From Microbacterium sp. Marseille-Q6648 (GTDB taxonomy: Bacteria > Actinomycetota > Actinomycetes > Actinomycetales > Microbacteriaceae), in NCBI RefSeq assembly GCF_943181415.1, contig NZ_CALPBZ010000001.1:1116001-1180000 (forward strand): a stretch of DNA of 64,000 nucleotides, read 5' to 3'. Under the pieces are notes generated by a model that was given only the letters and a program-made list of their open reading frames with translations, ran no database searches and was not told the DNA's origin. The first letter of the stretch is position 1. Each line of letters starts with the position of its first letter. Shown piece after piece: positions 1,240-28,848 of this stretch. A program made the translations under genes and the position numbers.

Positions 1240-1725
1240 ATGGTTAGTCAATACACATGGATGCCGAGTGGTTTTAGCGCAAGCCTCACGGGAGGGGGCA
1301 TCTCCGGCACCTGGATCAAGTCGGACGCATCGATCTGCCAGGGATTCGTCGACTATGTCGCCGATAAGCGCTTCGTGATCGACGACGTCCGTGATGAGAT
1401 CAGCGACCATGTGTTGGCGTCCGTGCAGAAGGTAAGGGAGTACTCGGTCCAGTCGATGCACCTTCCACGAAGCAAGACTGCCCGGCAATCCATGAAGAAG
1501 GTCGCTGACGCCTGTCGCGATTATGTGCGTGGTGCGACCCCCAACGCCGACCAGGAGACCCTCGACGTCGCGCTGCAGGCGCTGCGAAAGCGGATCGGTT
1601 CGGAGCTCGTCGCACTCGTAACCAAGTACTCCCTCGACTGCGATCTGGATCTCTCGCGCTATACCGAGGACGGCGTCGAGGTGCTTGAGCGATGGATGCG
1701 AGAGGAGCCCTACGAAGTCGAATAG
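1240..1725 (+). CDS. Hypothetical protein, 161 aa
   Basis: A complete ORF with a GAGGGGACGG ribosome binding site just before the ATG and codon use like its neighbours. The N-terminus (VSQYTWMPSGFSASLTGGGI) is rich in small residues. The rest is predicted mostly helical, with an acidic C-terminus and no membrane segment. I do not recognise a family. It stands alone on the plus strand between the regulator pair and the minus-strand ATPase/subtilase/DUF3800 module, flanked by two copies of a 21-bp repeat. It is likely an accessory gene of the mobile element; its function is unknown. Confidence 0.65.
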   Translation: MVSQYTWMPSGFSASLTGGGISGTWIKSDASICQGFVDYVADKRFVIDDVRDEISDHVLASVQKVREYSVQSMHLPRSKTARQSMKKVADACRDYVRGATPNADQETLDVALQALRKRIGSELVALVTKYSLDCDLDLSRYTEDGVEVLERWMREEPYEVE

Positions 1726-1800
1726 GCCGAACGAGGGCGATCAAGGCTTCACTGCACTGATCAAGACCGGTGCGATCGCGGTGGCATCTACCTGGCGGCA

Positions 1801-1821
1801 GGATCCATAAACGGGCATTGC
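1801..1821. repeat. Second copy of the GGATCC-TAAACGGGCA repeat
   Basis: GGATCCATAAACGGGCATTGC matches 19 of 21 positions of the copy at 945-965. The two copies bracket the hypothetical gene at 1240-1725. This copy also opens a short palindrome, CGGGCATTGCCCG. Confidence 0.5.
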
Positions 1822-1919
1822 CCGCTGAGCGGGCCGCTTCGTTCAAGCCAGGTCGGATATGACCTGTTCCATCAGCATTCCTTTCGCCTCCAGTCCGACT
1901 TCGAGGTCGATAGTCCCGG

Positions 1920-2969
1920 CTAGAACTGGGAGAGCATCGCTTTGCGAGCATTCTCGACGTTCATGTTCCCCGGTATCGGCCACAGACTTGCTCCGCTCAC
2001 CATTGGAATCAGGCTCGGGCTCAAAGGATGCTGATGCTCGCTGACCATCGATTCCCCGACGATGCGACCGGTGCCAGCGAGCAGATCAGCCACTTGGACC
2101 CGGGGATCCTCTTTCGAGTCGACGAGCCGAACGTCAGTTAGTTCGCAAGCCAAACCTTGTCGCGAAGGGGCAACGCCCTCCGGGTGGGAAAGGAACTGCT
2201 TCACCCATTCGATCTTCACCGGGGTCAGTTCTTTGGTCGCATCGTGGACCACTTCAACCGGCCTCCCTGAGATCGACCCCCAAGAGCGCACCGTCGCCCC
2301 GACCGCGGCGATGAGTGGATCCATCGTGCGAAGCCGTTCCTCACCGCCCTCGCCAAGCTGCAACTTCGACAGCGATCCCAGATGGCGTAAGCCAGCGAAG
2401 ACCGTCCCTAACACGTCGCGCACGACGGCGTCCTTATCGGACAAGAGAGTCACCATGCTTCTGATCAGGTGCGCCAGCTCCTCGTGCGCGTGAACGGCGT
2501 CCTTGGCGCGCATGAAGCGCTGGAACGTCATCAGGAGCCTGTCCCACGCCGTCCCGTAGCTTTGCGGCGCAAGGAAGAACAGTAGGTTCGCGCCAGCCAA
2601 GGCGGCGCCAGTCTCGTAGATGTCGTCCCCAAGTTCGTGCGCGAGTTCTTCCGCCGTCGAGTCGAACAGCTTCGAAACCACGAAGTATTTCTTGTGGGTG
2701 AGGTGCACGGATGCGCATCCTTCGAGCGAAGGATGCGACAGAAGCCACTTCGCCGTGGCCTGATGCCTTGGCTGAAGGATCGTCTTCGATTTCAGCTCCG
2801 TGGTCTGGCTGCGCGTGCGCCCACGGATTTCATCCATCAACGCGGCAGCATCGTCTGGGGCTACGGTCACGCTGGCATGAGCAAAGACCGTCGACCGCCC
2901 CGAGAGCAGGTTCTCGCCGTCGTTGCCGGATTCATCACAGGCCACCACCAGGGGTGCAGTCGCGGTCAC
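1920..2969 (-). CDS. DUF3800 domain protein
   Basis: A 349-residue protein that starts at GTG. It carries the two marks of DUF3800: an N-terminal acidic motif (VVACDESGNDG, about residues 8-18) and a C-terminal SKEDPRVQVADLLAG block (about 285-300). Together these resemble an RNase H-like metal site (Asp-Glu early, Asp late). DUF3800 proteins are commonly encoded in mobile and defence regions; the substrate is not established. The GTG start overlaps by 4 nt (GTGA) the stop of a tiny ORF at 2966-3076. That ORF follows the subtilase gene, so all are probably one leftward transcript. It may be the third component of the ATPase-subtilase module (inference). Confidence 0.8.
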   Translation of the reverse strand: MTATAPLVVACDESGNDGENLLSGRSTVFAHASVTVAPDDAAALMDEIRGRTRSQTTELKSKTILQPRHQATAKWLLSHPSLEGCASVHLTHKKYFVVSKLFDSTAEELAHELGDDIYETGAALAGANLLFFLAPQSYGTAWDRLLMTFQRFMRAKDAVHAHEELAHLIRSMVTLLSDKDAVVRDVLGTVFAGLRHLGSLSKLQLGEGGEERLRTMDPLIAAVGATVRSWGSISGRPVEVVHDATKELTPVKIEWVKQFLSHPEGVAPSRQGLACELTDVRLVDSKEDPRVQVADLLAGTGRIVGESMVSEHQHPLSPSLIPMVSGASLWPIPGNMNVENARKAMLSQF

Positions 2970-3076
2970 AGGGAGTCCGTCTCACGTCGATTCAGCTCGA
3001 GGACACCATCTTTGTCGATCACGAGCCACACCGACTGGCTCACGCTGCGACAGTCGCCGAATGGTTCGGCGGACAC
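2966..3076 (-). CDS. Tiny ORF (36 aa) coupled to the DUF3800 gene, or in-frame extension of the subtilase
   Basis: A GTG-initiated frame encodes 36 residues, including SVSQSVWLVIDKDGVLELNR. About three quarters of its codons end in G or C, as in real genes here. Its TGA overlaps the GTG start of the DUF3800 gene (GTGA). It is in the same frame as the subtilase, whose TGA lies only three codons before this GTG, so readthrough or an ancestral longer subtilase would add 39 residues. A competing ATG overlaps the subtilase stop in another frame behind GGTGGAG but gives an arginine-rich, less protein-like product. Independent expression is not proven. Confidence 0.45.
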   Translation of the reverse strand: MSAEPFGDCRSVSQSVWLVIDKDGVLELNRRETDSL

Positions 3077-3085
3077 GACCAGTGT

Positions 3086-5632
3086 TCATATTGCTCCACC
3101 TTGGATCCGGGTGCGGATGCTGGTTCGGATGTCGCCGGTGCGCACGCCGAGATCCCCCAGGTGCTGGCGCATCTGCTGGAAGACGGGAGCGTCGCCTTGA
3201 TCGTCGGCGATCGTTAGGACGGCGGCGAACTCGACGCCGGCGTCGGGGAATTGTTCTTCGGCACGGGTTAGGTATTCAACGAGGAACCGCCAGTCAGACC
3301 GGATGCCGCGGCCGCGCATACGCGGCGTCTCGAAGCTCTTCACGACCTGCCATTTCGAGGCTTCCTGCAACAACTCCCGCTCGTTCCGCGGGGCTTTCAG
3401 GGCTGCTGGACGGTTGACCGGCTTTAGTGCGTTCTTGAACCGTGGGTCGCCGTCCGGGCCGTCCTCTTGCTGTTGCATTAGTTTCGCGTCGATGTTGACC
3501 CGAACCCGCTCGTCTCCATGCTCGTACGCGAGCACGGGCCGGGCGACAAGAGTGAGGCGCGCGTACCCCCGGCACTTTCCGGACGGATCGACAAGCGCGG
3601 CCGGCCAGTTGAAGTCGAGCGTGTGCTGCTCGCCGCTGAGAACGGTGCTGTGTACGACGATGACGATCTCGCTATCCGGCCGCTGTAGCATCGCCGCCGC
3701 GGAGGAGGGGAGACCATACCCCGCGAGGTCGCGCGCGAGGGGCAGGACGTTGCGGTGCCGCATGATCGCCGGCATTTGCGCGTAATGGACGAGCAGTGCA
3801 AGAAGAACCTCGCGCGGAACGTTCCCGTCGATGGATTGGTCGAGGTCGGCGAGCACTCGTGCGACAAGTGGTGCAGCGTAGCTCGTGCCCGCGCCAGTGG
3901 TTTGCACGCCATCTACGTCGATGCTCATTAGGCCATGCCCACGCCTGGAGTCCGGGGTGCCGGATCCGCCCACGTGAGCGAAGTCTGGTTTCGTTGCGCC
4001 CCGAAGTCCAGGTCCGCGGCGACTGTACCGGGCAAGAGCATAAGGCACCTGCCCGTTCAGGTCAGGTGGGTTGAGCGCACTGACGGACAGATTGAACAGG
4101 CTTTCGGCTGGCTCGTTGATGAGGCCGGTCGAGTCACCGATAAGCGTGGCGACGGCCGCGGCTGTGTCGCTGGGCCACTCCGATCGTTGCTCGGCGGGTG
4201 CGAGGTTGCCTGCCGAGATGACGAAGATGACATCATGATCGCGGGCGATCTGATCGAGGCGACGGGCCGCGTAGCCGTAGCGAGCACTGTCGCCGGGGCC
4301 CACGAAATTGAGGCTGAAGTTGAATACGCGCACCCCGAGTCGTGATCGGTAGTCGCTTACTGCTGATTCGACCTCGTCCAAGAAGTCAATCACGCCATTG
4401 GGGTAGTAGCGTTCGAACGCCTGATTGGTGCCGGCCGGATCTGCGGGGAGCACATCGATATCCACGACTTCACAGCCGGAGGGCACACTACTGAGGTAGT
4501 GGGGGTTGAGATCGCCGCATGCCACGAGCAGCCCGGAGATGAACGTGCCGTGGGCTTCGTCTCTGTCCTCTGAGGACAGCTGGTCCCAGCGGTCGATCAC
4601 CCAGGCGTCAGCTGTCTGCGATACACCTCCGTCGATCACTCCGACCCTCGCCACCACCTCATCCCCGCGGTCCGGCAGGCCAGGAGCGAGAAGTTCGTTC
4701 GTGGGGATCGTCTTGGCCTTGTCTGCCTGGGCAATAGGCGGGAGCGTGATGTCCCGTACGAGCGTGGATTCCTCGAGAGCACGAAGCACCGCCTCGTGCC
4801 GGTCCGCGGAGGCGGTCCGTAGTACGGCCGAGCCGACGTGGCTACCTACGGCTGTGGCGAGGAGCCCGAGTTGCAGGACCGAGTCGCGCCCCTCGTCGAG
4901 GAGCCCCACGGTGACAACGCGACCCGAGCCGCGGCCGAGTGCTGCGCGAGCACGAGCATCCACCGCCAGCCGTGAAAGGCGGGTGTGGAGGGCGCGTGCG
5001 GCGACCTGCTCAGCCGCGATGAGGTTGGGTTCGGCCCCGTAACCGGCGAGGGGGAAGAAGTTGACGATGTACTGTCCGCCGGTACCTGCACGGCTCAGCC
5101 ATTCCGCCCCCTCGACGGCGCTGAAGGAGCGCTTGTCAGCCGCCGTCCACAGTTCGATTGCAGCGATGGCTGAAAGTTCGCAACGTAGGCGCGTGGGGTT
5201 GGGTTTAACCTCGCTAGTTGCTTTGTCGGTCTTCGTCGGCACCTCGGTGGGTGCTGTGGCGACGAGATCTGCGATTCGCTCGAGTGCGGCGGCAGTGACG
5301 GCGTAGATGGGTTCGCCGATACGTGCCGTTGCGACATGGGGCGCGATCTTCTCTCTAAACACGGCCCGCTGGGGGCGGTGGCTCTTCGCGATCGCCCGAA
5401 GTCGCATGGTGACCCTGATGTGGACGGCATCGCCGTTCTCGCGCTGCCATGCGGCGCTACGCACAGTCGAGATCACGTCACGAAGTGATGCCGCGAGGAA
5501 GTCCCGGTGCGCGGCGAAGCCGGTGTCATCGCCTGCAAAGAAGTCATCACCGGCTTTCCCCGGACGGTTCTTCTCGCGTGGCGTGCGCAGCCGGTGCGGG
5601 TTGGTAACTACCTGTACGGGCTCATTCGGCAT
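3086..5632 (-). CDS. Subtilisin-like serine protease (peptidase S8) of an ATPase-protease pair
   Basis: An 848-residue protein from the ATG at 5632, chosen because GGAAGGGAA lies about 9 nt upstream and it overlaps the ATPase stop by 11 nt. The catalytic tetrad is intact: Asp about 334 (GVIDGG), His about 361 (EAHGTF), oxyanion Asn about 476 (ISAGN) and Ser about 584 (GTSYAAP). About 330 residues without a signal peptide precede the protease domain, and about 260 residues follow it. This points to a cytoplasmic protease, unlike secreted subtilisins. It resembles the Y4bN-like subtilases that are encoded directly after an AAA ATPase and are often found in mobile or defence regions. The likely role is cleavage of a host or phage protein under ATPase control (inference). 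Confidence 0.88.
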   Translation of the reverse strand: MPNEPVQVVTNPHRLRTPREKNRPGKAGDDFFAGDDTGFAAHRDFLAASLRDVISTVRSAAWQRENGDAVHIRVTMRLRAIAKSHRPQRAVFREKIAPHVATARIGEPIYAVTAAALERIADLVATAPTEVPTKTDKATSEVKPNPTRLRCELSAIAAIELWTAADKRSFSAVEGAEWLSRAGTGGQYIVNFFPLAGYGAEPNLIAAEQVAARALHTRLSRLAVDARARAALGRGSGRVVTVGLLDEGRDSVLQLGLLATAVGSHVGSAVLRTASADRHEAVLRALEESTLVRDITLPPIAQADKAKTIPTNELLAPGLPDRGDEVVARVGVIDGGVSQTADAWVIDRWDQLSSEDRDEAHGTFISGLLVACGDLNPHYLSSVPSGCEVVDIDVLPADPAGTNQAFERYYPNGVIDFLDEVESAVSDYRSRLGVRVFNFSLNFVGPGDSARYGYAARRLDQIARDHDVIFVISAGNLAPAEQRSEWPSDTAAAVATLIGDSTGLINEPAESLFNLSVSALNPPDLNGQVPYALARYSRRGPGLRGATKPDFAHVGGSGTPDSRRGHGLMSIDVDGVQTTGAGTSYAAPLVARVLADLDQSIDGNVPREVLLALLVHYAQMPAIMRHRNVLPLARDLAGYGLPSSAAAMLQRPDSEIVIVVHSTVLSGEQHTLDFNWPAALVDPSGKCRGYARLTLVARPVLAYEHGDERVRVNIDAKLMQQQEDGPDGDPRFKNALKPVNRPAALKAPRNERELLQEASKWQVVKSFETPRMRGRGIRSDWRFLVEYLTRAEEQFPDAGVEFAAVLTIADDQGDAPVFQQMRQHLGDLGVRTGDIRTSIRTRIQGGAI

Positions 5633-6794
5633 GAATGTGGTTCCCTTCCGCAAACTCGCTCACCCGGCGGCTGACGGTCTTGGTGCTAACGCCGGTCAGG
5701 AAGGCGATCTCGGACTGTTGAAAGCGGATATCGGTCGACGTCGCGAGCGCCTGCATGAGTGACGTCTCGTCGAGCCTGATCCTGGGTTTAGTGGCGCCGT
5801 CCCTGGCCGTCGTGGATGCAGCGAGCGGGCTGATGGTCGTGACCGGGGCAGTTGTCCGCTCGGCGAGGATCGAACGTTTGCGGTATCGGTCGACGAGAGT
5901 GATCAGCTCCGAACCCGAGTAGCCCTCGGAGATCCAGGCGACGAACTTCGCTTCAGTCGTGAGGTCCTTCATGGAGGCCTTGGCTATCTCGAGTCGTTCA
6001 AGCGCGGTGGGCAGCGGGGTTGCCAACTGCACTTCGAACCGTCGCCAGACGGCCGGGTCGAGGAGCGCGTGGTGGTTTGTGATGCCGATCGTGATTCCGG
6101 TGTCGGCGCGGGTGTCGATGTTCTGCAGAAGTGTGTTGACCACGCGCTTGATTTCGCCGACTTCGTTCGGGTCGTCGCGGAGCTTGGCGATGGCGTCGAA
6201 CTCGTCGAGGATCAAAACGCACTCGTACCGTTGGGCGAAGTCAAAAAGTGCGCCCAGGTTGCGTGCGGTGGTACCAAGGAAGGAACTGATGAGCCCGTCC
6301 AGCCGGGCAACCACTGCGGGCAGGCCAAGGTCTCGAGCCAGCCACAGCGCGAGGCTTGTCTTTCCAGTACCGGGTGGGCCATAGATCAGGCAGCTGAGTG
6401 CGGGCCGCATCCCCGCGTCGGCCAGCCGCTCGTGGTTCTCCCACTCCATACGCAGGCCGTCCACTGATGCCGCGAAGTCCGCGGGGAAGACTGGTCGGGT
6501 CGCCACGTTCTCGTCAGGAAACACCACGGTCGCCAGCGGAGCAGACGTCTCGCGGTCGACGGGCACGCGTACACCCCGCCTCATCCGTTCCCCAGCGCTG
6601 CTCTTCGTCAGCCGACTGGGCGTGAGCGTCTTGGTTGCAGACTCGCTACGGAGCATGCGCGTGAGAGCAGCGGCATCCTTGTCGTCCGCCTTCTCCAGTG
6701 CGGCGGCCAACCGCTCGACCTGGTGGCGCACAGTGTCATCGCCTTGTGCGAGCGCGACTCGAACCAGAGACTTGACGACAGCGAAGTGTTCCAT
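5622..6794 (-). CDS. AAA+ ATPase partner of the subtilase, with C-terminal HTH
   Basis: A 390-residue AAA+ protein. Walker A is GPPGTGKT at about 139-146, Walker B is VLILDE at about 193-198, sensor 1 is GITN at about 237-240, and an arginine finger pair (WRRFE) is at about 250-254. The last 45 residues (QQSEIAFLTGVSTKTVSRRV) form a helix-turn-helix-like segment, unusual at the end of a AAA+ ATPase. The N-terminal 90 residues are helical and probably form the partner or sensor domain. It is the first gene of the leftward operon and overlaps the subtilase start, which implies coupled translation. It is probably the sensing or unfolding half of a two-component protease system; the trigger is unknown. 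Confidence 0.88.
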   Translation of the reverse strand: MEHFAVVKSLVRVALAQGDDTVRHQVERLAAALEKADDKDAAALTRMLRSESATKTLTPSRLTKSSAGERMRRGVRVPVDRETSAPLATVVFPDENVATRPVFPADFAASVDGLRMEWENHERLADAGMRPALSCLIYGPPGTGKTSLALWLARDLGLPAVVARLDGLISSFLGTTARNLGALFDFAQRYECVLILDEFDAIAKLRDDPNEVGEIKRVVNTLLQNIDTRADTGITIGITNHHALLDPAVWRRFEVQLATPLPTALERLEIAKASMKDLTTEAKFVAWISEGYSGSELITLVDRYRKRSILAERTTAPVTTISPLAASTTARDGATKPRIRLDETSLMQALATSTDIRFQQSEIAFLTGVSTKTVSRRVSEFAEGNHIHAE

Positions 6795-7119
6795 GCAGAC
6801 AGGTTAGCGGCTAGTTCGGACACTGACTGCCCTTGGATAGACAGTTTTCAACTCAGAGAGGACGAATATCTCGTGCTGAGTGACTCTTCCGTGACGCCAG
6901 CGGGTCGTGAGCGTGCGCAGAGGTCGTCGCATGGCGAAGATGGTTCGTGCCATCGACGCCGCAACTAGTCAGTCAGTTCGGTGTTTGCATGATCCGCTCA
7001 CTCGACGCGTCGCGCCGGCGTGACCGTCGGTCGTTCGATCAGCGTTCGCTGACCGGTCCATTAATGTTCGTCAGCTCACATGCTTCACGAATTCCAAGAT
7101 TGTGTGCCAAGGTCGCGAC
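6795..7119. other. Divergent intergenic region
   Basis: About 325 bp between the leftward ATPase gene and the rightward small membrane protein gene. It must hold both promoters. No RNA gene or convincing ORF is visible; a 27-codon ATG frame from 6940 is too short and has no ribosome binding site. Confidence 0.4.
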
Positions 7120-7653
7120 ATGGAAGTACTTGCCGTCGTGTTGTCGGGCGCCGCAGTGGTGATTGCAATGCTCAGCGCATTGTTCACTCGGCAACAAGTT
7201 GTAGTCGCGAAGGCAAGCACTCGCGCGCAGTCATTACTATCTGTCGTCGACTATTTGCAGCGGACGGAGATCCGTGAGGCGCGACGAACTGTTCTGACGA
7301 CGCTCGTTGGGCATCCTCTGGATAAGTGGACTCAAGAGGAGCGCGGGATAGCCTCGACGGTGGCTGCTTCCTACGATCTGGTCGGCACTCTGCTCCGCGA
7401 CGCCGTTATTCCGCCGCGACCAATCCTCGAAAGCTACGGTGCCAGCATCATTCGCTGCCATGAGGTGTGCCGGCCGATGGTTGAGGAGTTCCGGCAAGGC
7501 ATGTCGGCCGAGCTCGCGCGGTCGTATTGGGACGACTTCGACTGGCTCGCGATCGAGGCGGCAAGGACACTCGGCCATAGTGGGTCCCCCAGCCGGGGCG
7601 GTGTCATCGACGCTTCTGAGCCTGAGGCGGGTGAAGGAACTCGAAGGGCGTGA
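7120..7653 (+). CDS. Small membrane-anchored protein, function unknown
   Basis: About 177 residues from the ATG at 7120; a GTG in frame at 7102 is possible. An N-terminal hydrophobic segment (EVLAVVLSGAAVVIAMLSAL) is followed by a basic stretch and a helical soluble domain. This is an N-in/C-in or N-out anchored layout resembling DUF4760-type proteins, though the family assignment is uncertain. Similar architecture is seen in the protein at 27596-28300 next to the integrase. A hairpin at 7655-7678 follows directly after the stop. Confidence 0.6.
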   Translation: MEVLAVVLSGAAVVIAMLSALFTRQQVVVAKASTRAQSLLSVVDYLQRTEIREARRTVLTTLVGHPLDKWTQEERGIASTVAASYDLVGTLLRDAVIPPRPILESYGASIIRCHEVCRPMVEEFRQGMSAELARSYWDDFDWLAIEAARTLGHSGSPSRGGVIDASEPEAGEGTRRA

Positions 7654-7842: not shown

Positions 7843-10614
7843 CTACATCCCCATCCCCTGCCCCGCACTCGGCGCCCCAGCAACCGGCCCCGTCCAAAGC
7901 GCCGAGTCCCGGGCCCGCGCCGCGCGCTGCATCTCCGCCTGAGCCGCACGCACGGCATCCTGCATAGTCAGCTCCGGTGTGCCGCGCTGCATCGACTCGG
8001 CGAGGCGCTCGCGGGCGGCGGCATCCGACCGCGCGACCACGATGGCGACATTGTGCACCCGCCCGCGAGTGAGGCCCACATACAGGCCGGCTGCGTCCAC
8101 ATCCGGCCCGACCACCGACGCATCGGCTGTGTCGCCTTGAACGCCATGCACCGTCGATGCGTAGGCGAGCTGCAGGTGCGCCCGCGCATACTCGGTAGTC
8201 ACTCGCCGCAACTCGCCGCTGTCGCTAACCGACACAAGATCAACGAAGTCATCATGGATGCCACGCACGGTCCACTGCGCACGATTCTCAACGCCCGTGA
8301 GTTGATCATTACGGCGGGTCTGGACGGTGTCACCGACGAGGATGCGCTGCTCCCCCATCCCCCACGCGAGCACGCCAGGATCAAGCTCGCCGTGATCGAC
8401 TCGCCGCTGCTGTATGGCGTCGTTGATGGCATCAGCCTCAGCGTTGGTACCGGAAACCAGCGTCACCCGCTTGCCGCGCGCGTGCCACGCGAAGTACGCG
8501 TCGATCATCCGCTCGCGGGCTGCATCATTATGATCGACCCGCTCGACGTGACCGCGTTCCGTCAGCTCACCTGCAACCGCCATCGCATCCTCACGATCGC
8601 TCGCATGGCGCAGGCGCAGCGTCAGAGCCGCGTACTCGGGGTCACGGAACCGATGCACCGTATCGAGCTCAACTGCGGCATTTGCATGTCGGATCGCTGA
8701 ACCCATCGCGCCGGAGTGTCCTACGGGCAGCGCCTGGTGCGGGTCCCCGACGAGCGCGAGCCCCACACCCTGTTCGATCGCGAGGTCAGCGAGGACGTTT
8801 GCGGTCAACAGGTCGATCATGCCCGCTTCATCGACCACGATCCGATCGCCAAACCGCAACACGTACTGCGTCGGCCCGCCATATGCGACACCCGTGCTGG
8901 GGTCGACCTCCCCCAGCCGCAGTCGTGTCCACGCCTTTCCGCCAGCCTCATCGGGACCCCACCGGTAGCCGTGGTCCGCGAGTAGCGCATGGATACTGGA
9001 TGCCGCCGCCCCGACCTCGCGAGACGCCACTGTCGCCGCTTTCCGGGTGGGTGCGACCACGAGCATCCGCCGCTGCTGCGCCCGCAGCGCTGCGAACGCG
9101 GCACGCAACATCGTCGTCTTGCCTGTGCCGGCGGGGCCGGTGACTGTGACAAGCCCGTCAGTTCCGGCGATGGCGCAGGCGGCAACCCCTTGGGACGCAT
9201 CCAGTGTCGAGATGTCTTCGTCGGGCGCCAACCCAAACAACTCATTCGGTAGGAGCGAGCGCCCCGGCTGGGCGAGCACGTCGAGGCGTCCGGCTAGGCG
9301 TATCTTCGTGCGGACTGTGTCGGTGGCCATGTAGGCCTTTACGTGCGCGGGCGGCACCTCCGCAACGAGCTGCCAAACGGCTTTCGCAGCGCGAGTTGTG
9401 ATGTCGGCGATCACGGGTTCGATCTGGGAGCGCTCGGCAACGATGCCCGTCCGTGATAGTGCGCGTACCGCGCCGGCGCGGATGTCGAAGTCGCTGAATC
9501 GCCCGCCGCTTGAAGTCGATCTCTCGTCCGCGTCAACGACCGCCGCGGCAGCGAGCAGGTCCAGATCAAGTGCGCGCAGGTCTGTTGCAGCGACGGCGAC
9601 AGGCGCCCGCGGGGCGATCAGGCTCGGATCGATTGCCGCGATCTCATCGCGGACGCGCGACTCCCATGCCATCTCTTCGAGGTCGGCGGGCTTGTTTGGT
9701 CGCGCTACCGCCCACGCGCGCCGGTCGACCTGTTGCAGCACCTCTGCGCTCGGCGCCGATCCCCCGTTTGCCTTCGACCACTCCGCGATCATGCGCGTGC
9801 GGTTCGCCTCGATCTGCGCCGATCGACGTGAGAGCGGGCGGACGGCGCGGGCGAGTTCAGTGATCTCTCCCGTGTCGTCGAGTGTGTACCCGTGGCGAGC
9901 GAGCGCGGCGATCCACGCGGGGTCTGTGCGGGCCGTGAGCTCCCCCTCGGCATTGACGACGGTGTGCAGCTTCATCGCGACCCGCGAGTCGACGTTCGAC
10001 CATTTGCCGTCCGCGCCGAGCACCTTGATGTTCAGCCAGAGGTGGCGGTGGATATGCGGGTCGAGCGCTCTGGAACGGCGGTGCTGCAGCTCGACGACCT
10101 CGATGCGCGTGATCTCCTCGCGGACGAGCCCACCATGCCCGCGCCGCGCGTTGAGCTCGTTCTGCCAAGTGAGAAGGATGCGCTCCCGGAGCCGGTCTTG
10201 CAGTGCCTCGAACTCCGCGGCGAGCTCGGGATGCAGTAGCGCCGCGATGCTGTACGACTTCGGGTGATTGAGCGTCCCGTCGAGCACCAAGTCCGCATCA
10301 GGGCTCAGCCGCTGGTGGCCTCGCCCCTCCCCCGTAATCGGGTCGTGCCCGGTGAGCCAAACGCGAAGACCCCCAGCCGTCAGTTGGTCAGTAGTGATGA
10401 CACCGTGCTCGACGACGAATCGAGAGACGGTTGAATCGGATGCCGCGCCATACGCCTCGAGCGCTTCGACGCCCGTCGGGTGGGGCATGTGTGCGTCGCA
10501 CGTGCCCGAGAGGACGTACGAGATCGCGTGCCGAACACCTCGGGATTCGACGCCCCTCTTCCACCGCTCCAGACCTCCGCGCATGGCGCCAGAATAGGCT
10601 AGGTTTTCGGCCAT
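7843..10614 (-). CDS. MobF-type (TrwC/TraA-like) relaxase-helicase
   Basis: A 923-residue protein with a TrwC-like relaxase domain followed by a TraI/RecD-like superfamily 1 helicase. The metal-binding histidine triad sits at about 178, 189 and 191 (QHRRSRALDPHIHRHLW). Walker A is TGPAGTGKT at about 492-500, the DEAG box is in IVVDEAGMID, and the late motif YVGLTRGR is present. It would nick oriT, bind the strand covalently and unwind it for transfer, so the element may be mobilisable. Odd points: the N-terminus lacks the usual adjacent-tyrosine motif, and no ribosome binding site precedes either ATG. The ATG at 10584 lies just after TAGCCTATTCT, a -10-like sequence, which suggests a leaderless start there. 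Confidence 0.85.
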   Translation of the reverse strand: MAENLAYSGAMRGGLERWKRGVESRGVRHAISYVLSGTCDAHMPHPTGVEALEAYGAASDSTVSRFVVEHGVITTDQLTAGGLRVWLTGHDPITGEGRGHQRLSPDADLVLDGTLNHPKSYSIAALLHPELAAEFEALQDRLRERILLTWQNELNARRGHGGLVREEITRIEVVELQHRRSRALDPHIHRHLWLNIKVLGADGKWSNVDSRVAMKLHTVVNAEGELTARTDPAWIAALARHGYTLDDTGEITELARAVRPLSRRSAQIEANRTRMIAEWSKANGGSAPSAEVLQQVDRRAWAVARPNKPADLEEMAWESRVRDEIAAIDPSLIAPRAPVAVAATDLRALDLDLLAAAAVVDADERSTSSGGRFSDFDIRAGAVRALSRTGIVAERSQIEPVIADITTRAAKAVWQLVAEVPPAHVKAYMATDTVRTKIRLAGRLDVLAQPGRSLLPNELFGLAPDEDISTLDASQGVAACAIAGTDGLVTVTGPAGTGKTTMLRAAFAALRAQQRRMLVVAPTRKAATVASREVGAAASSIHALLADHGYRWGPDEAGGKAWTRLRLGEVDPSTGVAYGGPTQYVLRFGDRIVVDEAGMIDLLTANVLADLAIEQGVGLALVGDPHQALPVGHSGAMGSAIRHANAAVELDTVHRFRDPEYAALTLRLRHASDREDAMAVAGELTERGHVERVDHNDAARERMIDAYFAWHARGKRVTLVSGTNAEADAINDAIQQRRVDHGELDPGVLAWGMGEQRILVGDTVQTRRNDQLTGVENRAQWTVRGIHDDFVDLVSVSDSGELRRVTTEYARAHLQLAYASTVHGVQGDTADASVVGPDVDAAGLYVGLTRGRVHNVAIVVARSDAAARERLAESMQRGTPELTMQDAVRAAQAEMQRAARARDSALWTGPVAGAPSAGQGMGM

Positions 10615-10926: not shown

Positions 10927-11022
10927 ATGTCGGAGTTGATCGATAGTTTGGACCCCATCGAGTGGGAGGGGACCCGCGACCGTGAGTTCCGTGTACGACC
11001 GCGTTACCGAAGCGATTGCTGA
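10927..11022 (+). CDS. Possible 31-aa leader ORF overlapping the 987-aa gene
   Basis: An ATG with GGGAG seven bases upstream opens a 31-residue frame ([20 protein letters not shown] and so on) that ends at 11022, inside the beginning of the next gene in another frame. Such an arrangement can couple translation of the downstream GTG start at 10982. The peptide is acidic at first and basic at the end. It could equally be chance. Confidence 0.3.
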   Translation: MSELIDSLDPIEWEGTRDREFRVRPRYRSDC

Positions 11023-13945
11023 GGTCATGTTCGACTCGGTCCAAGCTGGGCGCCCCGTCTACACGCTGGCTGACGCCGAGACGATTAGCCGAGTGCTGGA
11101 CGCTGCTGGAGTTGAAGATTCAACGCTTGAAGGCCTCTCGCAGGTGGTGAGATCGACCTTGCAACTAGACAACGCTGGCGTCTCCACGTTGCACTCGCAG
11201 GCGGAAGATGCACGACGCCATCAACGTCATCCGCTTGAAACCCCGCCCGCCCTCCCGTTGCTGGTCGTGCTTTCGATCGCGGCCGAGAAGATGCACGCCG
11301 ACGGAAACCTTGCCGCGCACAACTACTACTCACGGCTTTACGGGATATTGGGCATTCCGGCGACGGAGTCGCACCGGTTCGAAAGGGACTACCGGCGCAC
11401 CGCTGAACTGCTGTGGGGGTCCCTGAACTCCTGGCTTGAGGCTTGGGAGGGCGAGCGTGGAATCCCGACCGCCTACGCGGTCGGAGGCCACGCTTTCATC
11501 GGGCTGCCGATGTCTCAGGCGGTTGTTCGACAACACGATCGTGACGGCCTCCACGAGCTCTTTGCGATGGAGGGCATGACGCCGGGTCTGCGTATCTCCC
11601 CGGACGACATGAGCCGCGCGATGGATCCATATGCGACGGCCATGCCGAGCCTTCCCCTCAGTTCGCACCTTGCCCGTCTCTGGCGCCTTTCGACCGCCAG
11701 GGAGCGGATCGTCGAAGCTGCTTGTCTTGAACTCGAGGCATGGGATGGTTCCGGGATCGAACGCATCGCGGCTATGCGCCCCGTTGCCACCACACGCCTG
11801 CTCGCATTCCTTCGGACTTTTCCGCGCAAGTCGATGGAGTTCAACCTGATGCTTCCGTACCGCTCGGAAGGGCCAGATATCGCCCGATTCAATCTTGCTG
11901 ACGGTGAGTCGATCGTTCCGACCGTCGCCGGGCCAGGTGGCTCAACGCGGCTCTCTGGCGTTGAGGGGGTTAGCGCGACATCGCTCGTAGCAGATCAACT
12001 GACGGGGAAGTTCGGGGATGATGACAGCCGTCCCTTCGGTCGCCGACCGACGCGAGTCGCTGCGCTCCGATGGGATGACCTCCAGGGGGCCTTTGTGGAG
12101 ATCGAGCGCATCTCGCTCGGTGAGGACAGCATCGTCCTTGCGAGTTCGGATGCGCGCCAGCGGGTAGAGGCCCACCTCGCCGCGCACGCTCGGCCCGGAT
12201 GGCAGGATCTCGCCGACCTGCCTGGAACACCGGAAGGGTGGCTGGTGTACCAACATGTCCAGATCGTCTCCGCCCCAACCGGACAGATGCATCCCGACCT
12301 GTTGCCCCTTGCTCCACGGGCACGCACGAGCCTGACGCTCCGAGGGGGATTCGTGCTCCCTGGACTGCTCCGCAAGTGGTCTGTGATGGAGCCCCCCGAG
12401 GCCGTTGCTCTCGCCGCTGGGGCGTCCTCAGTTAGTCTCCGCGTGTACCGCGGCACACGAATCGACCCTGCCGAGGTCATCGTCGAATCTGATCAACCCG
12501 GCGAACTTGCTGTTCTCCCGCTCCGGGACGGTGGCCTATCTGATGGCGAGTATGTTGTCGCGATGTTCGTCGACGATGCGGTCAAGCCGTCGTCGACGGC
12601 GCTGCTCCGTCTGCGATCGGCGCGTACACCACAGTTCAGGGTCGAGGACGTTGACATTCGCCTGGTCTACTCGCCGGACTATTCGCCACGCTGGCCGCTT
12701 ACCGCCGGCCCTCCCGAATGGCCGAGTCATGTGAATGGCCCGAAGATCGTCGGCCTCGAGTCAGGTCGCGATGGAGACGCAACTCCCATGCGGGAGTTCG
12801 TTCCGCGGGCGCGAAGCGCCACCAAGGCAGCGCCGGTCAAGACTCGCGTGGGCATCCCAATGGCGAGCGACTCATGCCTCATTACGGGAATGCATCGATT
12901 CCTGCTGCCGCCGGTCCTACCCGGGCAAGCACCCACACGGAGTATCGATGGCGAGTGCACGACTTGCGGTCTTGTGCGTCGTTTCGCGGGTACGCCCTGG
13001 GCTGCGAAGAAGAAGGATCGCGGTGCCAAGACGATCCTTCTCCCCGAGATCCCGCCCGTGATCGAATCCGACGGCCCTGACTTCGAGGTTGCGTTCGATG
13101 CGCTCAATCACGTCGGGACGGGGTCGTTCGGGGTCTTCGAGCGAATCGCTGCCCAGGTGGAAGGATCGGGCCTGTTTGCCGACTCATTTCTCCGACGCCT
13201 CGAGGTCACCGGACACTTGGACGTGGCGAGAGACTGCCATTTTCAGGTGACCGAATGGGCAGTGAACACGTCCACGCTCGTTCCGACGGGTGCCGGGAAG
13301 TATGTGCTCGTCGGGTCACGCTCAAGCGCGTTACTGGACCACCTCACTGACCTATTCGGGAGGGCCGCCGTCGTAAGCACGAGCGTCGACGCCGAACTCG
13401 CCCGAGTTGAGGTTGTTGGTGACTTGCCGATCGCGACACTGGCTGAGGCCGGCGTCACAGTTCTCGAGAAATCTCCAGCGAGGGCCATCGCACAGGCGCT
13501 CCCTCCTCTTAGTGACGTGGGGAGATCGCTCAAGCGCGTCATTGTGCCGACATACAGGTCAGCGGAGTTTTGGGATACGGCCTCCGCGTCGTGGCACCCG
13601 ACCGAGTCGCTTGCCAGGCTCGGCGCCTACAGGCTCAAAGACTTCGGTTCGACTTACGCGATCCGCACAGGTGGCGACATCGAAAGCGGGACGATCGGAT
13701 TGGGCAACGCCCAGATTGTGAAGCACATCGCGAACATGTGGGCTGGCGACCCCCTGATCGGCTATCACTCTCGCAGTGGCTCGGTTGTCACGCCGCTCGG
13801 CGCGGATCTGCCGTCGTTGTACGGGCGTGCGCTCGCGCTTTGCTCCGGTCGAGCGCCGCGCGAGATCGTCAGTCACCGGATGCTGCAGTACTCCTCGGTG
13901 CCGCGATCAGTAGCGGATGTCATCTATGACCGCGTGAGTCGGTGA
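10982..13945 (+). CDS. Large protein upstream of the DruE-like helicase; DruH-like by position
   Basis: A 987-residue protein from a GTG preceded by GGGAGGGG. No enzymatic motif is recognised. A short cysteine pair ([12 protein letters not shown]) at about 657-668 may bind zinc. The N-terminal 250 residues are helical; the middle has beta-rich segments. The gene overlaps the next by 4 nt (GTGA), so the two proteins are made together. Druantia type III consists of exactly two genes, a roughly 1000-residue DruH and a large DruE helicase. Size and order fit, but direct similarity to DruH cannot be confirmed here. Confidence 0.65.
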
Positions 13946-16900
13946 GCATCATGTCATTCCCGACCCCGGTAAAAATCGCTGATGATCTCCGCGATGCGTT
14001 CCTCCGCTACATCGACACCGCGTACGCTCTACAGGATCGGGCGCTCGCCGACGAGCGGCGACGTCTGCTGCTCGAGGGCCAGGGGAACCTGTTCGCACCG
14101 CTCATGCTCGAGCCCGTCTTGCCCTACGACGGAGTCGCCTCGGTGGTCGAAGCGGCGCGCCAGGCGGCAGTCGCAATCCGCGACCTCGGCGACGTCGTCA
14201 AGGCAGTCTTCGGCGTTACACCAGATGCGCTCGGCGACGTCAAGCTGCGCAAGCACCAGGCGGCCGCGATCGCAGCGCACTTTGCATCGGATATCAGGCA
14301 CAACCCGGTGGTCACATCGGGCACCGGCTCGGGCAAGACGGAATCCTTCCTCATTCCGCTCCTGACCCGGATCACGGCCGAGAAGAGGTCATCTAGTTCG
14401 CTGGCACCGATTCACGACTGGTGGGATCTGAAGCGGCAGACTGACGGCTGGCGGCCGACAAGGACTGTGGGGGCAAACCAGGCGGCGGTCCGGTCGGTGA
14501 TTCTCTATCCGACCAACGCGCTGGTTGAGGACCAGGTCGCGCGGCTGCGGCGAGCTGTGCGCGGGCTCCGACATCAAGAGTCACCGATTGATCTTTGGTT
14601 CGGCCGCTACACCGGAGCGACACCGGGCTCAGGCGGAGTGCCGACGGGAAAGGTGTCCGCGCCCGCGACCGCCGGGGCGGCCCGGGATATGCGTGAGCTG
14701 TCGCGGCTGAATGCACGTCTTGCCGAACTCGACGATCCGGACCTGATGGCCCAGTTCCAGGACCCCTACGCCGGCGAACTCATCACTCGCTGGGACATGA
14801 TTGCCACGCCACCCGACGTGTTGGTCACAAACTACTCGATGCTCAACGTGATGCTTATGCGCGACGTAGAGGAGCCGATCTTCGAGTCCACTCGGTCTTG
14901 GCTCCAGCGATCGCCCGATCACGTTTTCACCCTTGTCGTCGATGAACTGCACCTATATCGCGGTAGCGCCGGGGCTGAAGTGGGCATGGTCGTTCGGAAC
15001 TTGGCATCACGGCTCGGAATCGAGCCGTCGTCCGATCAGTTCAGGATCATCGCGACGAGCGCCTCCCTCCCTGGGGATGACTCGGGCCTGGAGTATCTGG
15101 AGCGCTTCTTTGGGGTCGACCGATCTTCTTTTCTGATTGAGCCGGGGCAGCCAAGAGCGCTGGTGTCGGGCACGAGGCCGACGGCGGTCGACGTGTTGAG
15201 CGTCGCCTCAGATGAACTCGCGGAAGCCGCGGCCAGCGGTCAATGGGCAGAGACTATCGCCGCTGCGTGCAGTGACACCGGCGACCGACGACCTAGGGCG
15301 ACGCGCATCGACACGATTGCGACCCGCCTCTTCGGGGACGATCCGTCGGCGTTGCCGACGCTCGCAGCGATGCTTACCGGTCTCGCTGCCGCGTCGAAGC
15401 CCGCAATCCAGTTCCGCGGTCACGTGATGATGCGAGGGATGCGCGGGCTGTGGGCTTGCTCCGACCCGGCCTGCCCTGGCGGAACCGATTCAGAGCCTCG
15501 ACGAGTTGGCCGGATGTATGACACCCCGCGGTCGACGTGCGCTGACTGTGGTGCGCGCGTGCTGGAACTCCTCTACTGCTTCGAGTGCGGCGATGTCAGC
15601 CTCGGCGGCTACGTCGTTGATCGACCTGATCGCACCGCTGTTGTGCTGTCCACTACGCCGGTCGCCCCTGGCGAGAACTCTGGCGACTTCGTGTATCGAA
15701 GGAATGATGACGAGTACCGGTGGCTCTGGCTTGGCTCGCCGGTGCCTCACGCGCCCACTCGGCACAAGCTTCCCGCCGACATGGACGAGAATCAGGCGAC
15801 TATCGAGACCAACTTTGGGGCTGCGACGTGGGATCCCAAGCTCGGCTCGCTCGTTCTTGGGGACTCTTCCGGAGGTGTCCCAGCAGTCGTTCTCAGCCAC
15901 AACGCTGCGAGCGTTGACGGTGGATGGGCGCTACCTGCGCTGCCGGAAACGTGTCCACGCTGCGGCGGACGTCAAGATAACCGCGATGCGGCGGTGTACT
16001 TCGCCGGCAATGTTCGCTCGCCGATCCGTGCACATACTTCAGGTCGGGCGCAGCTGAACCAGATGGCGGTGTCTCAGCTGTTCCGTAGCCTCGGGTCCGA
16101 GGCAGCGGAGTCGAGAACGATTGTCTTCACCGACAGCCGGGACGATTCTGCGCGCATCGCCGCCGGGATTGCACTCAACAACTTCCGCGATCAGATGAGA
16201 CAGGTCGTCCGGCAATTGCTTCACGGGCGGGAAAACCCTGTGCCAATTCTGCGCTCACTCATTCGTGGCGAACTCGGCGGCGACGATCTTCAGCGCGCGG
16301 AGTGGTTGCGCGCCAGCCGTCGCGAGCTGTTCGACAAGCTTCGGTTGGAGAGTCTTGGAGCCGCCGACTCCGCGGATGTGGCAATGATTGCCGCGGCGGA
16401 ACGCGAAACTGAATCCCTTCCTTGGGCGACACTGATTCACGACGCCGAGCGGGTGATGCTGGAGGCAGGTGTGAATCCAGCCGGAGCAGGTCCTTCGGTC
16501 GCGGAAAGTGAAGGCGATGCGCCTTGGTATCGCGCGTACGAGCCGCCCGTCCGTGGGGCCTGGGAGCCCTTGGCCGACACGATTGCGCGGCCGATCAGAC
16601 AGGACCGTCGCCGCCTTACGGCGACCGCCGTCGCGGAGGCCGTCTTTGACCGAGCCTCGCGTGATCTGGAGTCGACCCGGCTTGGGTTCGTCCGCGCGCG
16701 CCCTCTGGCGCCTGACACCTGGGGCTTCTCGGCAGAAATCGCGGGAGACGTCGTCGCCAGTGTGATTCGTCTACTGGGAATCGCCAAGCGATTCGAGGGC
16801 GGGTACGCGGCCCGATCGAACTCGGCGCCGAAGGTCGTAGGGGCTTATCTGAAGCGAGTGGCCGCGAAGCATCAAGTTGACTGGCAAACGCTTGCATCGA

Positions 16901-19299
16901 ACGTCGGAGAGTTCCTCCGGGAGAGCGGCATCGTCGATGAGACTTGGGCGCTCAGGACCCAGACAGGGCAGGACGCCCTAGAGCTCAGGACGCCAGGTGA
17001 CAGGGTCTGGGTTTGCGACAATTGCGGGACGACGCACCTCCATCCCTCCGCTGGTGTCTGCACCAATGAGGAATGCCCAAACGGCGTTCTCCATGAGGAT
17101 GCGTGGTCGGAGGAACTCGACTATTACGGATGGCTTGCCTCACAGCCGCTCAGGCGCATGAGAGTTGCTGAACTCACCGGTCAGACGCGGCTGGCCGAGC
17201 AGAGGACTCGGCAGCGATTGTTCAAGGGAGCGGTACTTCCGGCGCCCGCTGAGAGCGCACTCGCTGATCCTCTTGACCTGCTTTCGGTGACGACCACGAT
17301 GGAGGTTGGTGTCGATATCGGCTCGCTCCGCGCTGTCGCGATGGCGAATATGCCACCGCAACGATTCAATTATCAGCAGCGAGTCGGCCGGGCTGGACGT
17401 TCAGGGCAGCCGTTCTCGTTCGCTGTAACTGTGTCGCGGGATCGAGCGCACGATGACTACTATTTCCACGCGCCGGAAAAGATGACTGCGGCTGATCCGC
17501 CACCACCGTTCATCGACCTATCGCGGCCTCGGATTGTCCGCCGGGTGATTGCGGCAGAGCTTCTCAGACGGGCTTTCCTCGCTGGGAAGAATCCGCCGCG
17601 ACGGACCGGCGACAGCATCCACGGGACGTTTGGCTTGACGAATGAGTGGGCGCAGCGACGCGCGGATGTCGGGGCATGGCTCCAAGTATCGGATGACGTT
17701 CCGATTGTCTGCGAAAGGTTCAGCGCGTACACGGCGCTAGATGTTGCTGACCTCAAGAGGTGGGCGCGGAACGGTCTGGTCAGGGACATCGACGAAGCTG
17801 TAGGTAACCCCTATTTCCAGCACGTCGAACTCAGCGAGTTGCTCGCGAACGCGGGCGTTCTTCCGATGTTCGGGTTCCCAACCCGGGTGCGGCCGCTCTA
17901 CTCAAAGCCGGTCCGCGGTAGGGCTGATACCGAAAAGCACATCGTCGCCAATCGCGACCTTCGGATGTCAATCACGGCATTCGCCCCGGGGGCGGTTGTC
18001 GTTAAAGATGGGGCGGAGCACCTCGCAGTGGGCTTCGCTGCTTACAACTTCGTCGGGACGAGCGCACGTGCGAAGGACCCTCTTGGCGTAGCGCTGCCGG
18101 TTCATCGCTGCGGCCAGTGCGGGAGCCTCGACACCCGTCCGACGGACGCGTCACTCAAGTGCTCGGTATGCGGCGAGGAGATGAGAGCGTTTTCGCTTCA
18201 CCAACCCGAGGGCTATCGGACGATCTACAGTCAGCCGGACTACGACGACTCGCACATCACGCCGATGTATGCGGGTTATTCCGAGCTTTCGACGAACACC
18301 GAGCTTGGGCAAGAGGTGAGGCTTCACGGGGTATCGATCCGACTCCTCGAGCAGGCTGAAGTCGTCGCGGTGAACGACAACAACCGGAAGCTTTTCGATC
18401 TGAGCCGTCTGCTGGACGGAACAGTGATCGCTCAGAATCGGGAGCTCTATCGGCGGCCGCTGCCCGACTTCATGCGGACGGGCGGGCAAGCCCTCGAGCC
18501 GGCGGCGATCGGTGAAGTCCGCCGCACCGACGTGCTGCTGCTCGGCCTTGATGGGCTGGCGCTGCCTGATGGTGCGGTCGCCACCCTGCCCTGGGCATGC
18601 CCCGCGGGCAAGGGCGCGTTGCTTTCCTTCGCCGAGCTGCTGCGCAACGCTGCCAAGGACTATCTGGATATCGAGCAGTCCGAACTGGAGGTCGGGCTCC
18701 AACCGACACGCAGTGGCACCACCGTCTCGGCGAGAGTGTTCCTTGCCGACGCTCTTGATAATGGAGCGGGGTATGCCCTCGAACTCGGAAACAGCTCGAC
18801 GTTTGAGACGCTCCTGAACTCAATCCGGGAAGCGACGGGTTGGAGATTGCGCGAAAACCCGCACGGCGCAGCCTGCACGTCTTCATGCCCGGGATGCCTC
18901 CGCAACTATGAGAACCGCTTCAACCATTGGGCGCTCGACTGGCGACTCGGGCTCGACGTTGTGGACCTCGTGCTCGGCCGCAGCCTTGACCTGTCCCACT
19001 GGACTGAGCGCACCGACGCTCTGATGAAGAGCTTCGCTGGTGGCTACGGTCCGCACCTTCGGATCGAACAGGACACCGTAAACGGGCTGCCAGCGCTCGT
19101 TTCTCCCGAAGGCCGCGGCGCAGCTGTCATCATCGGCCATCCGCTGTGGCAGCATGACGAAGCACACTGGAATCCCGCGGTTCGGCATGCCGTAGCCGAG
19201 ATGCGTGGCCGCCGTCTGTCCCACGTCACCGTGTCAGATGTATATGTTCTCGACCGAACCCCGATCAAGCTGTTCAACGCGTTGCTTAAGGGCGTTTGA
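13942..19299 (+). CDS. druE: DruE-like giant DEAD/DEAH helicase with DUF1998
   Basis: A 1785-residue superfamily 2 helicase. Walker A is GTGSGKTE at about 127-134, motif II is DELH at about 334-337, motif III is ATSAS, and motif VI is [12 protein letters not shown]. Between the halves and near the end are four-cysteine clusters ([42 protein letters not shown]). The C-terminus has the DUF1998 signature ([19 protein letters not shown]). This is the layout of DruE, the helicase of Druantia anti-phage systems, and also resembles the DrmA/DpdJ group. The gene is coupled to the 987-residue partner upstream, which favours Druantia type III. Start is GTG 13942 (ATG 13951 is an alternative). The mechanism of Druantia is not fully known. 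Confidence 0.82.
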
Positions 19300-19354
19300 A
19301 GGGCCGGACCGCAATCCGGCGGATCGTACGTCTCTCGACCGAAACCAGTGCGAG

Positions 19355-20422: not shown

Positions 20423-20455
20423 TGGTGAAGGGCCCTCCTCGGCCCACTCGGAGCG

Positions 20456-26005: not shown

Positions 26006-26341
26006 CGCGAGAACTTTGTACCCAGTCGACCTGCGTTGTCTCGTACTCATTCTTACTCCGACAATCAGACATCAAGCGGTCGGGTGCGGCGCAGTGCTCG
26101 TCGTCGAACGGCTGCTAAGCGGAGCGCGCCAGCGCGGAGTCTGCAAGGAGTGAGCGCCGAGAACGGAGGCGCGACCGATCGCTACACTCTCGGCGTCGGA
26201 GGAGGCGCCCATCAACCCGACATCAGTTGCGACGTATTGCTTCATCTATCCACATCTCACCTCGGTCGCGTTGACGACGGCTCATCTGTGTCCGACACTG
26301 GCCGAATACGGACCCTGAAGCCGGCACGAGCGGAGGTCGAG
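26006..26341. other. Intergenic region upstream of the integrase
   Basis: About 336 bp. An open frame continues upstream of the integrase, but its residues look unlike protein and the real start has its own ribosome binding site. No RNA gene or repeat is recognised. Confidence 0.4.
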
Positions 26342-27472
26342 ATGGGCTACATCACCCCGTATGAGACGGCGAAGGGCCGTCGCTATCGCGTGCGCTATCG
26401 CAAGCCGGATCGCACCGAGGCGGAGAAGCGCGGGTTCACGACGATGCGCGAAGCGAAGCTGTACCTCTCCATGGTCACGGTGTCGAAATCGAAGGGCGAG
26501 TACATCGATCCGTCCTCATCCCGGGTTCCGGTCCGGATGTTCGCGGACAGCTGGCTGAAATCGAAGCAGCCGCCGATGTCGAAGCCGTCGTATTACGCGA
26601 CGCTCGAGCAGGCGTGGAAGAACCACGTCGCGCCGGTGTGGGCCGATCGGGAGATCTCGTCGATCCGGCGCTCAGAAGTTCAGGATTGGGTGTCAGATCT
26701 CGCGACGAGGAAGTCGCGGACGGTGGTCCTTCGCGCGCTGGGGGCTCTGGCCGGCATCCTTGACGTTGCGATCGACGATCGACGCCTCGCGAGCAATCCG
26801 GCCCGCAACGTCCGCAATCTTCCGCGGCACGGTCCGGGCAAGCGCCGCATCTATCTCACACATGACCAGGTGGCGACGCTGGCGGCGTGCTCGGCACATC
26901 CGACACTCGTCCTCACCCTCGCTTACTGCGGTCTGCGGTGGGGTGAGGCGACGGGGCTGCGGGTGCGGAGCGTGAACCGGCTGCGTCGACGCTTCGTTAT
27001 CGAGGAGAACGCGGTCATGATCGCCTACGAGATCCACGTCGGCACACCCAAGACGCAGGAGCGCCGTTCGGTCCCCTTCCCCGCGCGTCTCGCCCCGATG
27101 ATCGAGCAGGCGTGTGCCGGCAAGGGCCCGGAGGGACTGCTGTTCGGCGACGGTGTCAATCACATGCGCAACTCGGGCGACAAGGGATGGTTCGCGAATG
27201 CGGTTCGGCGGGCGCAGGAGTTCGATCCATCGATTCCGAGACTGACCCCTCACGACCTCCGTCACACTGCCGCATCGCTCGCGATCAGCTCGGGCGCGAA
27301 TGTGAAAGCTGTGCAGCGGATGCTCGGCCACGCGTCGGCGGCGATGACACTCGACACGTACGCCGATCTCTTCGAGGACGATCTGGACGAAGTCGCAACG
27401 CGACTGAATGCGCAGATGCCGTTGGTGGCTCTTCCGTCGGGTCCGCAGACCCGATACGCGCGACCGCATTGA
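26342..27472 (+). CDS. Tyrosine recombinase / phage-type integrase
   Basis: A 376-residue site-specific recombinase. The start at ATG 26342 has GGAGGTC upstream and matches the usual N-terminal arm-binding segment (GRRYRVRYRKPDRTE). Next is the SAM-like core-binding domain (about 60-150). The catalytic domain holds Arg in CGLRWGEATGL, the HDLRHTAAS box, the LGHAS box, and the nucleophile Tyr in MTLDTYADLF. The enzyme probably inserted the element into the tRNA-Arg gene 1.3 kb downstream. The excisionase-like protein at 724 is a candidate partner. Confidence 0.93.
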   Translation: MGYITPYETAKGRRYRVRYRKPDRTEAEKRGFTTMREAKLYLSMVTVSKSKGEYIDPSSSRVPVRMFADSWLKSKQPPMSKPSYYATLEQAWKNHVAPVWADREISSIRRSEVQDWVSDLATRKSRTVVLRALGALAGILDVAIDDRRLASNPARNVRNLPRHGPGKRRIYLTHDQVATLAACSAHPTLVLTLAYCGLRWGEATGLRVRSVNRLRRRFVIEENAVMIAYEIHVGTPKTQERRSVPFPARLAPMIEQACAGKGPEGLLFGDGVNHMRNSGDKGWFANAVRRAQEFDPSIPRLTPHDLRHTAASLAISSGANVKAVQRMLGHASAAMTLDTYADLFEDDLDEVATRLNAQMPLVALPSGPQTRYARPH

Positions 27473-28776: not shown

Positions 28777-28848
28777 TGCCCCTGGAGGGACTCGAACCCC
28801 CAACCGTTTCCTTAGGACGGAACTGCTCTTCCATTGAGCTACAGAGGC
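28777..28848 (-). tRNA. tRNA-Arg(CCU)
   Basis: The minus strand folds as a complete tRNA. The acceptor stem GCCTCTG pairs with CAGGGGC, the D arm is GCTC/GAGC, and the anticodon loop GTCCTAA gives anticodon CCU. The T arm has loop TTCGAGT. The discriminator is A and no CCA is encoded. The CCU tRNA-Arg gene is a frequent integration target. Here its 3' end faces the integrase and the accessory region, so the element presumably duplicated this 3' part at its far end, outside the window. Confidence 0.96.

Follow-up and report, generated by a model that had tools for sequence, protein, structure and literature searches.

The two-gene system ietAS, which consists of an ATPase and a subtilase, was reportedly described as anti-phage by Gao in 2020. 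The homologous mycoplasma pair TA132/3 is a working toxin-antitoxin system in which the subtilase is the toxin and the ATPase is the antitoxin, according to the available part of that paper (PMC8562856). Another toxin-antitoxin pair, sgiAT of SGI1, is likened in the accessible sections of its description to IetA/IetS of pTiC58 (PMC5006074). IetAS has also been found in a Pf phage, where it accompanied resistance by a mechanism that its authors, in the portion of the report available, called unknown (PMC11878078). With regard to DUF3800 proteins (PF12686), the excerpts available of two papers describe them as accessory nucleases with an RNase H fold in some V-A2 and VI-F CRISPR loci (PMC10910872, PMC12669027).

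Here, we have examined a stretch of 64,000 nucleotides from Microbacterium sp. Marseille-Q6648 (hereafter the window), at whose left end the open reading frame list contains three long frames on the minus strand in the order ATPase, subtilase and DUF3800. The first of them, ietA (5622..6794, minus strand), encodes an AAA+ ATPase of 390 aa, a putative antitoxin or regulator, and matches the PADLOC IetA model PDLC02195 over residues 1-380 (1.6e-138, 460.4 bits) as well as the Pfam AAA domain (5.2e-27). The second, ietS (3086..5632, minus strand), encodes a subtilase of 848 aa when read from the ATG at 5632, a putative toxin, and matches the PADLOC IetS model PDLC02199 over residues 2-843 of 847 (6.1e-251, 833.1 bits) and Pfam Peptidase_S8 (1.1e-18); an alternative start at a TTG codon (5653) is possible. 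With the ATG start, the ietA stop codon (5624-5622) lies within ietS, giving an 11-bp overlap on the same strand with the ATPase first.

The Walker and catalytic motifs of the two proteins are intact. IetA contains a Walker A motif (GPPGTGKT, 139-146, with Lys145), a Walker B motif (LILDEFD, 194-200) and a WRRFE motif that we take to be an Arg-finger, and a sequence search of the PDB matched it with AAA domains of the Cdc48/p97 type. Its C-terminal part has an HTH-like stretch (approximately residues 362-377), whose HTH_Crp_2 score reached just 0.0016 and 18.8 bits vs a cut-off of 27. In IetS, the catalytic set of Asp (GVIDGGV), His (HGTF), Asn (SAGN) and Ser584 (GTSYAAP) is intact, and the same kind of PDB search returned no match at 1e-3. 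The original prediction, which had described an ATPase with a C-terminal HTH overlapping a subtilase with an unbroken Asp-His-Asn-Ser set and had assigned the pair to a kind found in mobile and defence regions, thus holds in these respects, including its numbering of Ser584 and Lys145; the HTH stays below the profile cut-off, and the assignment agrees with the PADLOC matches and with the homologues in the partly available literature.

The order of the genes, the overlapping or adjacent subtilase gene, the catalytic motifs and the mobile-element setting are shared with the known IetAS pairs (ietA/ietS of pTiC58, sgiA/sgiT of SGI1 and TA132/3 of mycoplasma), those of pTiC58 and SGI1 being likened by description only. 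Unlike them, the pair in the window has diverged and is followed by a DUF3800 gene. Since both proteins fall below the NCBIfam equivalog cut-offs for anti-phage IteA/IteS (266.8 vs 510 bits for IetA with NF042959 and 236.8 vs 900 bits for IetS with NF042956), they represent a diverged subfamily, and the pair looks, from its sequence, like a diverged copy of the known IetAS toxin-antitoxin or anti-phage type.

The nearest full-length IetS relatives found are 34-41% identical and all reside on plasmids, the top ones (39-41%) on those of Rhizobium, Sphingopyxis, Agrobacterium and Aureimonas. The IetS model was run against samples of the order (396 genomes) and the class (394), and the protein against a sample of the phylum (396); within these samples, no further genome contained a near-full-length IetS, and the best other match had an E-value of 6.0e-76 and covered model positions 273-799 of 826. 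At the order level, 94 of the 396 genomes gave a match, 16 of them at E <=1e-10 and only the window at full length, and the weak matches are presumably ordinary subtilases. Viral contigs yielded two candidate stretches for IetS relatives, none of which was confirmed, and no candidate DUF3800 relative. The gene next after ietS varies among the 10 plasmid relatives that were fetched. In two plasmids, one of Agrobacterium vitis (L071, 7448-8844) and one of Rhizobium leguminosarum (L073, 3827-5223), a small ORF and a gene of approximately 360 aa, annotated as Shedu in the former and as hypothetical in the latter, lie on the same strand behind IetAS, where they occupy the place that DUF3800 has in the window.

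The pair is located on what is probably an integrative element of about 29 kb, comprising window positions 1-28796 and about 350 bp further to the left, because the 3′ end of tRNA-Arg(CCT), a probable right attachment site of 20 bp (28777..28796), is repeated exactly on the left side at C1:1115650-1115669, i.e. 332-351 bp left of window base 1. Besides ietAS and the DUF3800 gene, this element, probably bounded by the 20-bp repeats, carries a TrwC-type relaxase/helicase (7843..10614, minus strand; PF08751 1.9e-27, AAA_30 7.5e-36), DruF and DruE of a Druantia type II-like system, identified with PADLOC, beside a SacI-like restriction enzyme and a C5 cytosine methylase (10982-21703), a GmrSD-type enzyme of 1004 aa (22991-26005) and a tyrosine integrase (26036..27472, plus strand; PF00589 9.5e-18). 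A gene for a DUF4760 protein (7102-7653; 4.8e-5, 24 bits, just under the cut-off of 25) separates ietA from the relaxase gene and lies on the opposite strand to both. As separate observations, the methylase fits both the DruM and the type II methylase models, and residues 655-707 of the GmrSD enzyme resemble the DNA-binding domain of O6-methylguanine methyltransferase (2.3e-5, 24.6 bits, under the cut-off of 27). Elsewhere in the same genome, outside the island, a protein of 1288 aa (L068:4793-8659, equivalent to C1:1100793-1104659) matches PDC-S37 (1.7e-81) and Hhe (1.2e-33).

By analogy with the described pairs, we infer that the copy in the window may have both toxin-antitoxin and defence action. 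IetA would restrain the subtilase toxin IetS; if the ATPase were lost or disturbed, either by loss of the element or by phage infection, IetS would be released, and the free protease would cleave cellular proteins, so that growth would stop. On the island, IetAS could in this manner stabilise the element and serve as a phage defence. The pair sits on a tRNA-Arg element together with a relaxase and an integrase, and the homologous sgiAT promotes, according to the available part of its report, the maintenance of SGI1, likewise an integrative mobilizable element (PMC5006074), which would suit a pair that mainly keeps its element in the host by addiction, with phage defence as a secondary effect; however, the Druantia II-like, restriction and GmrSD genes on the same island point to defence, and the two roles are not mutually exclusive. 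We regard a primarily addictive role as a real possibility that falls somewhat short of an even chance.

The third long frame (1920..2969, minus strand, GTG start) encodes a DUF3800 protein of 349 aa at the place where the original prediction had put one. It passes the gathering cut-off of PF12686 (E 5.1e-6, 27.7 bits vs 21), no PADLOC model matches it, and a PDB sequence search with its profile gave as best hit an unrelated entry (E 0.57). Its predicted structure has an RNase H fold, the best 20 structural matches being RNase HII/HIII, and residues D12, E13, E58, D243, D284 and D295 are invariant across 9 sequences. The protein is predicted, on the basis of the structural model, to be an RNase HII-like nuclease, although it differs from RNase HII/HIII by an identity of 10-16% and by a long inserted helical part. 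With the TPR-DUF3800 accessory of Cas12a2 loci, also a PF12686 member, it shares the predicted RNase H-type fold and the DESG motif, which we take to be typical of DUF3800 proteins, and, as in some other loci of the family, its surroundings are those of defence. Unlike that accessory, the gene in the window is solo, has a helical insertion and shows no TPR match, and there is no CRISPR gene among the island genes scanned.

Counting the window's own genome, relatives of this protein were detected in 12 of 366 genomes from the genus and in 4 of 299 from the family. A protein scan of genome contigs provided 10 DUF3800 loci. The closest, with identities of 77-83%, are from Microbacterium sp. AG1240 (L031), Lumbricidophila (L032) and Agromyces humatus (L033); another is from Microbacterium suaedae (L034). 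In L032, a type II CBASS (11595-15839; cyclase, E1-E2 and a fused JAB-TIR-SAVED effector) is situated approximately 0.5 kb behind the solo DUF3800 gene.

Between ietS and DUF3800, a frame of 36 codons (2966..3076, minus strand) overlaps the DUF3800 start by GTGA at 2969-2966, and a second frame of 35 codons (3089-2982) lies across it. The former had been proposed as a tiny ORF with GTGA coupling; the overlap is present, and the status as a gene could not be upheld. At the DNA level, the window shares with L031, L032 and L033 blastn blocks that extend over 3034-1919, 3033-1919 and 3061-1916, respectively, at identities of 78.8-85.7%; the blocks begin 25-53 bp after the ietS stop and end immediately beyond the DUF3800 stop codon. 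The DUF3800 gene thus shares with its relatives a leader of 64-92 bp (2970..3061, minus strand), which had no match in L083, whose DUF3800 is 76% identical. The 36-codon frame is shifted in L031, is interrupted by two stops in L032 and stays open in L033; because only one of the three relatives keeps it intact, it does not encode a conserved protein. Based on this frame comparison and the DNA alignment, in which it overlaps the conserved DUF3800 leader and mostly consists of it, the tiny ORF was rejected as a gene. The similar frame in L033 had raised the idea that it might be what is left, at the 3′ end, of a truncated gene that once partnered DUF3800; this was dropped because the frames of L031 and L032 are broken and no adjacent gene is common to the DUF3800 loci compared. 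Once antisense frames and a locus present in two copies are disregarded, the neighbours common to those loci amount to scattered protein similarities at least 1.2 kb away, i.e. an ABC-transporter-like protein in L032, L036, L038 and L040 and one ORF in L031 and L039.

As to what the leader does, it would most simply comprise the promoter and ribosome-binding region of DUF3800; the promoter role is put forward conditionally because no promoter-like match was found in the leader with the sigma-70 consensus, the only one used. In addition, the minus strand between 1700 and 7200 has no terminator-like site and the leader is continuous with ietS, so co-transcription by read-through from ietS into DUF3800 is possible. 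We also considered whether this region might form a structured RNA acting together with DUF3800, in the manner of the Rfam DUF3800 RNA motifs, given that families DUF3800-I and DUF3800-IX exist and that DUF3800 has been tied to putative ncRNAs in print, as far as the partial texts go; nevertheless, a scan of positions 1500-3600 of the window alone matched no Rfam family at E values up to 10, the folding z-scores were +1.0, +1.3, -0.1 and -1.0, a compensatory change occurred in only one of 23 predicted pairs (4 sequences), and L083 lacks a leader match. The first three of these results led us to reject such an RNA, whether in the leader or in the tiny ORF, as extremely improbable.

Gene order alone might suggest that the DUF3800 protein is a working partner of IetAS. 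In the original prediction, the ATPase, the subtilase, the tiny ORF and DUF3800 formed a three- or four-part module with a protease-activated nuclease. In such a module, IetS, once freed from IetA, would cleave and so activate the DUF3800 nuclease, the effector. The genes lie on the same strand with the GTGA overlap and with no terminator-like site between them, and both kinds of gene occur in defence regions, all of which would fit such a module; the comparison of other loci speaks against it. Thirty-four other IetAS-type loci were examined, including 26 with both IetA and IetS (tblastn, within 3.5 kb and on one strand), 6 with IetA only at the tblastn cut-off, their subtilase coming from the profile search, and 2 with IetS only. 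Because the sequences of L043, L051 and L066 extend less than 0.7 kb beyond ietS, 31 of the 34 (24 of the 26 two-gene loci) test the position, having at least 2.9 kb there, and none of these 31 has a DUF3800 gene behind ietS (gene ends being estimates). DUF3800 was sought with a subfamily HMM built from alignment A2, which distant DUF3800 proteins may escape and which was used because a whole-genome PF12686 search had failed to report the window's own gene. The only DUF3800 in the stretches examined at the 34 loci is that of L076, which lies on the opposite strand, upstream of ietA at a distance of approximately 3 kb.

The reverse comparison gave the same picture. The 24 DUF3800 rows correspond to 21 distinct loci, as L084, L085 and L086 repeat the match figures of L039, L035 and L038, and IetS was present in the examined flanks of none of the 21, including the first 10 loci; these flanks measure about 1.3-1.5 kb on each side in seven loci (L058, L059 and L087-L091), and L033 and L035 have less than 0.5 kb of upstream sequence. 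The sole trace of IetA near the 21 is an AAA match in L036, and it is weak. When 21 genomes that contain an IetS-type match were searched with PF12686, 5 had a DUF3800, which was on a different contig in four cases and at a distance of about 250 kb in the fifth, thus never near IetS; this count is weak because the search missed the window's own DUF3800. Furthermore, DUF3800 and its leader are common to L031-L033 as one block without ietS. The literature search, outside which subscription papers mostly lay, found no paper joining IetAS with DUF3800.

Considering that DUF3800 is not co-conserved with the pair in either direction (0/31 and 0/21 loci), contrary to what the original prediction required of its module, the three- or four-part module was rejected, and protease activation of the DUF3800 nuclease by IetS is very unlikely. 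It is instead quite likely that an IetAS front is followed by an independent one-gene DUF3800 unit with its own leader, which recombination in a defence island would have brought beside ietS. There may still be a recent, lineage-specific partnership between IetAS and DUF3800, which would be beyond the reach of this comparison because the nearest full-length IetS relatives have such low identities.

The DUF3800 gene may be a one-gene defence nuclease, because its product is predicted to be RNase HII-like and matches to other defence systems occur nearby in 4 of the 8 loci examined. According to this idea, DUF3800 acts alone and lies beside IetAS since both accumulate in defence islands. In the neighbour scan, 10 of 20 proteins had a PADLOC match, of which 6 were counted; the remaining 4, judged too weak or too general to count, were an ABC ATPase in L032, an AAA match in L036, a mad2 match in L039 and a match at E 0.0005 in L083. 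Those counted belong to the type II CBASS of L032, PDC-S06 (L034), Dsr1 (L038) and a partial PDC-S60 (L039), compared with a control of 1 in 10 for proteins of the window's own genome outside the island, and the accessory role of DUF3800 nucleases in CRISPR loci introduced above points in the same direction. On the other hand, the 8 loci are a small, hand-picked sample and the control is small and limited to a single genome, one CBASS accounts for 3 of the 6 counted proteins, nothing was counted in L031, L033, L036 and L083, and the window's DUF3800 is matched by no PADLOC model. A solitary defence nuclease is therefore a tentative explanation for the window, clearly below an even chance; it is compatible with the preferred reading, i.e. 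an IetAS front and an independent DUF3800 unit, and does not contradict it. Its extension to the whole subfamily, as a stand-alone anti-phage RNase HII-like nuclease spreading in the form of a one-gene cassette (leader and ORF) among actinobacterial defence islands, is more speculative and rather unlikely on present evidence.

The order of genes and an overlap of start and stop codons can give the impression of a multi-part system; here, comparison of loci points to two independent units. The present analysis extends IetAS by a diverged actinobacterial pair, carried on an integrative island with a relaxase, and it singles out a DUF3800 subfamily whose members are simple candidates for defence nucleases encoded by one gene. 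If this were true, the cassette would settle beside unrelated systems, such as IetAS, CBASS, Dsr1 and PDC-S06, and in Microbacterium sp. Marseille-Q6648 it would be open to read-through from ietAS.
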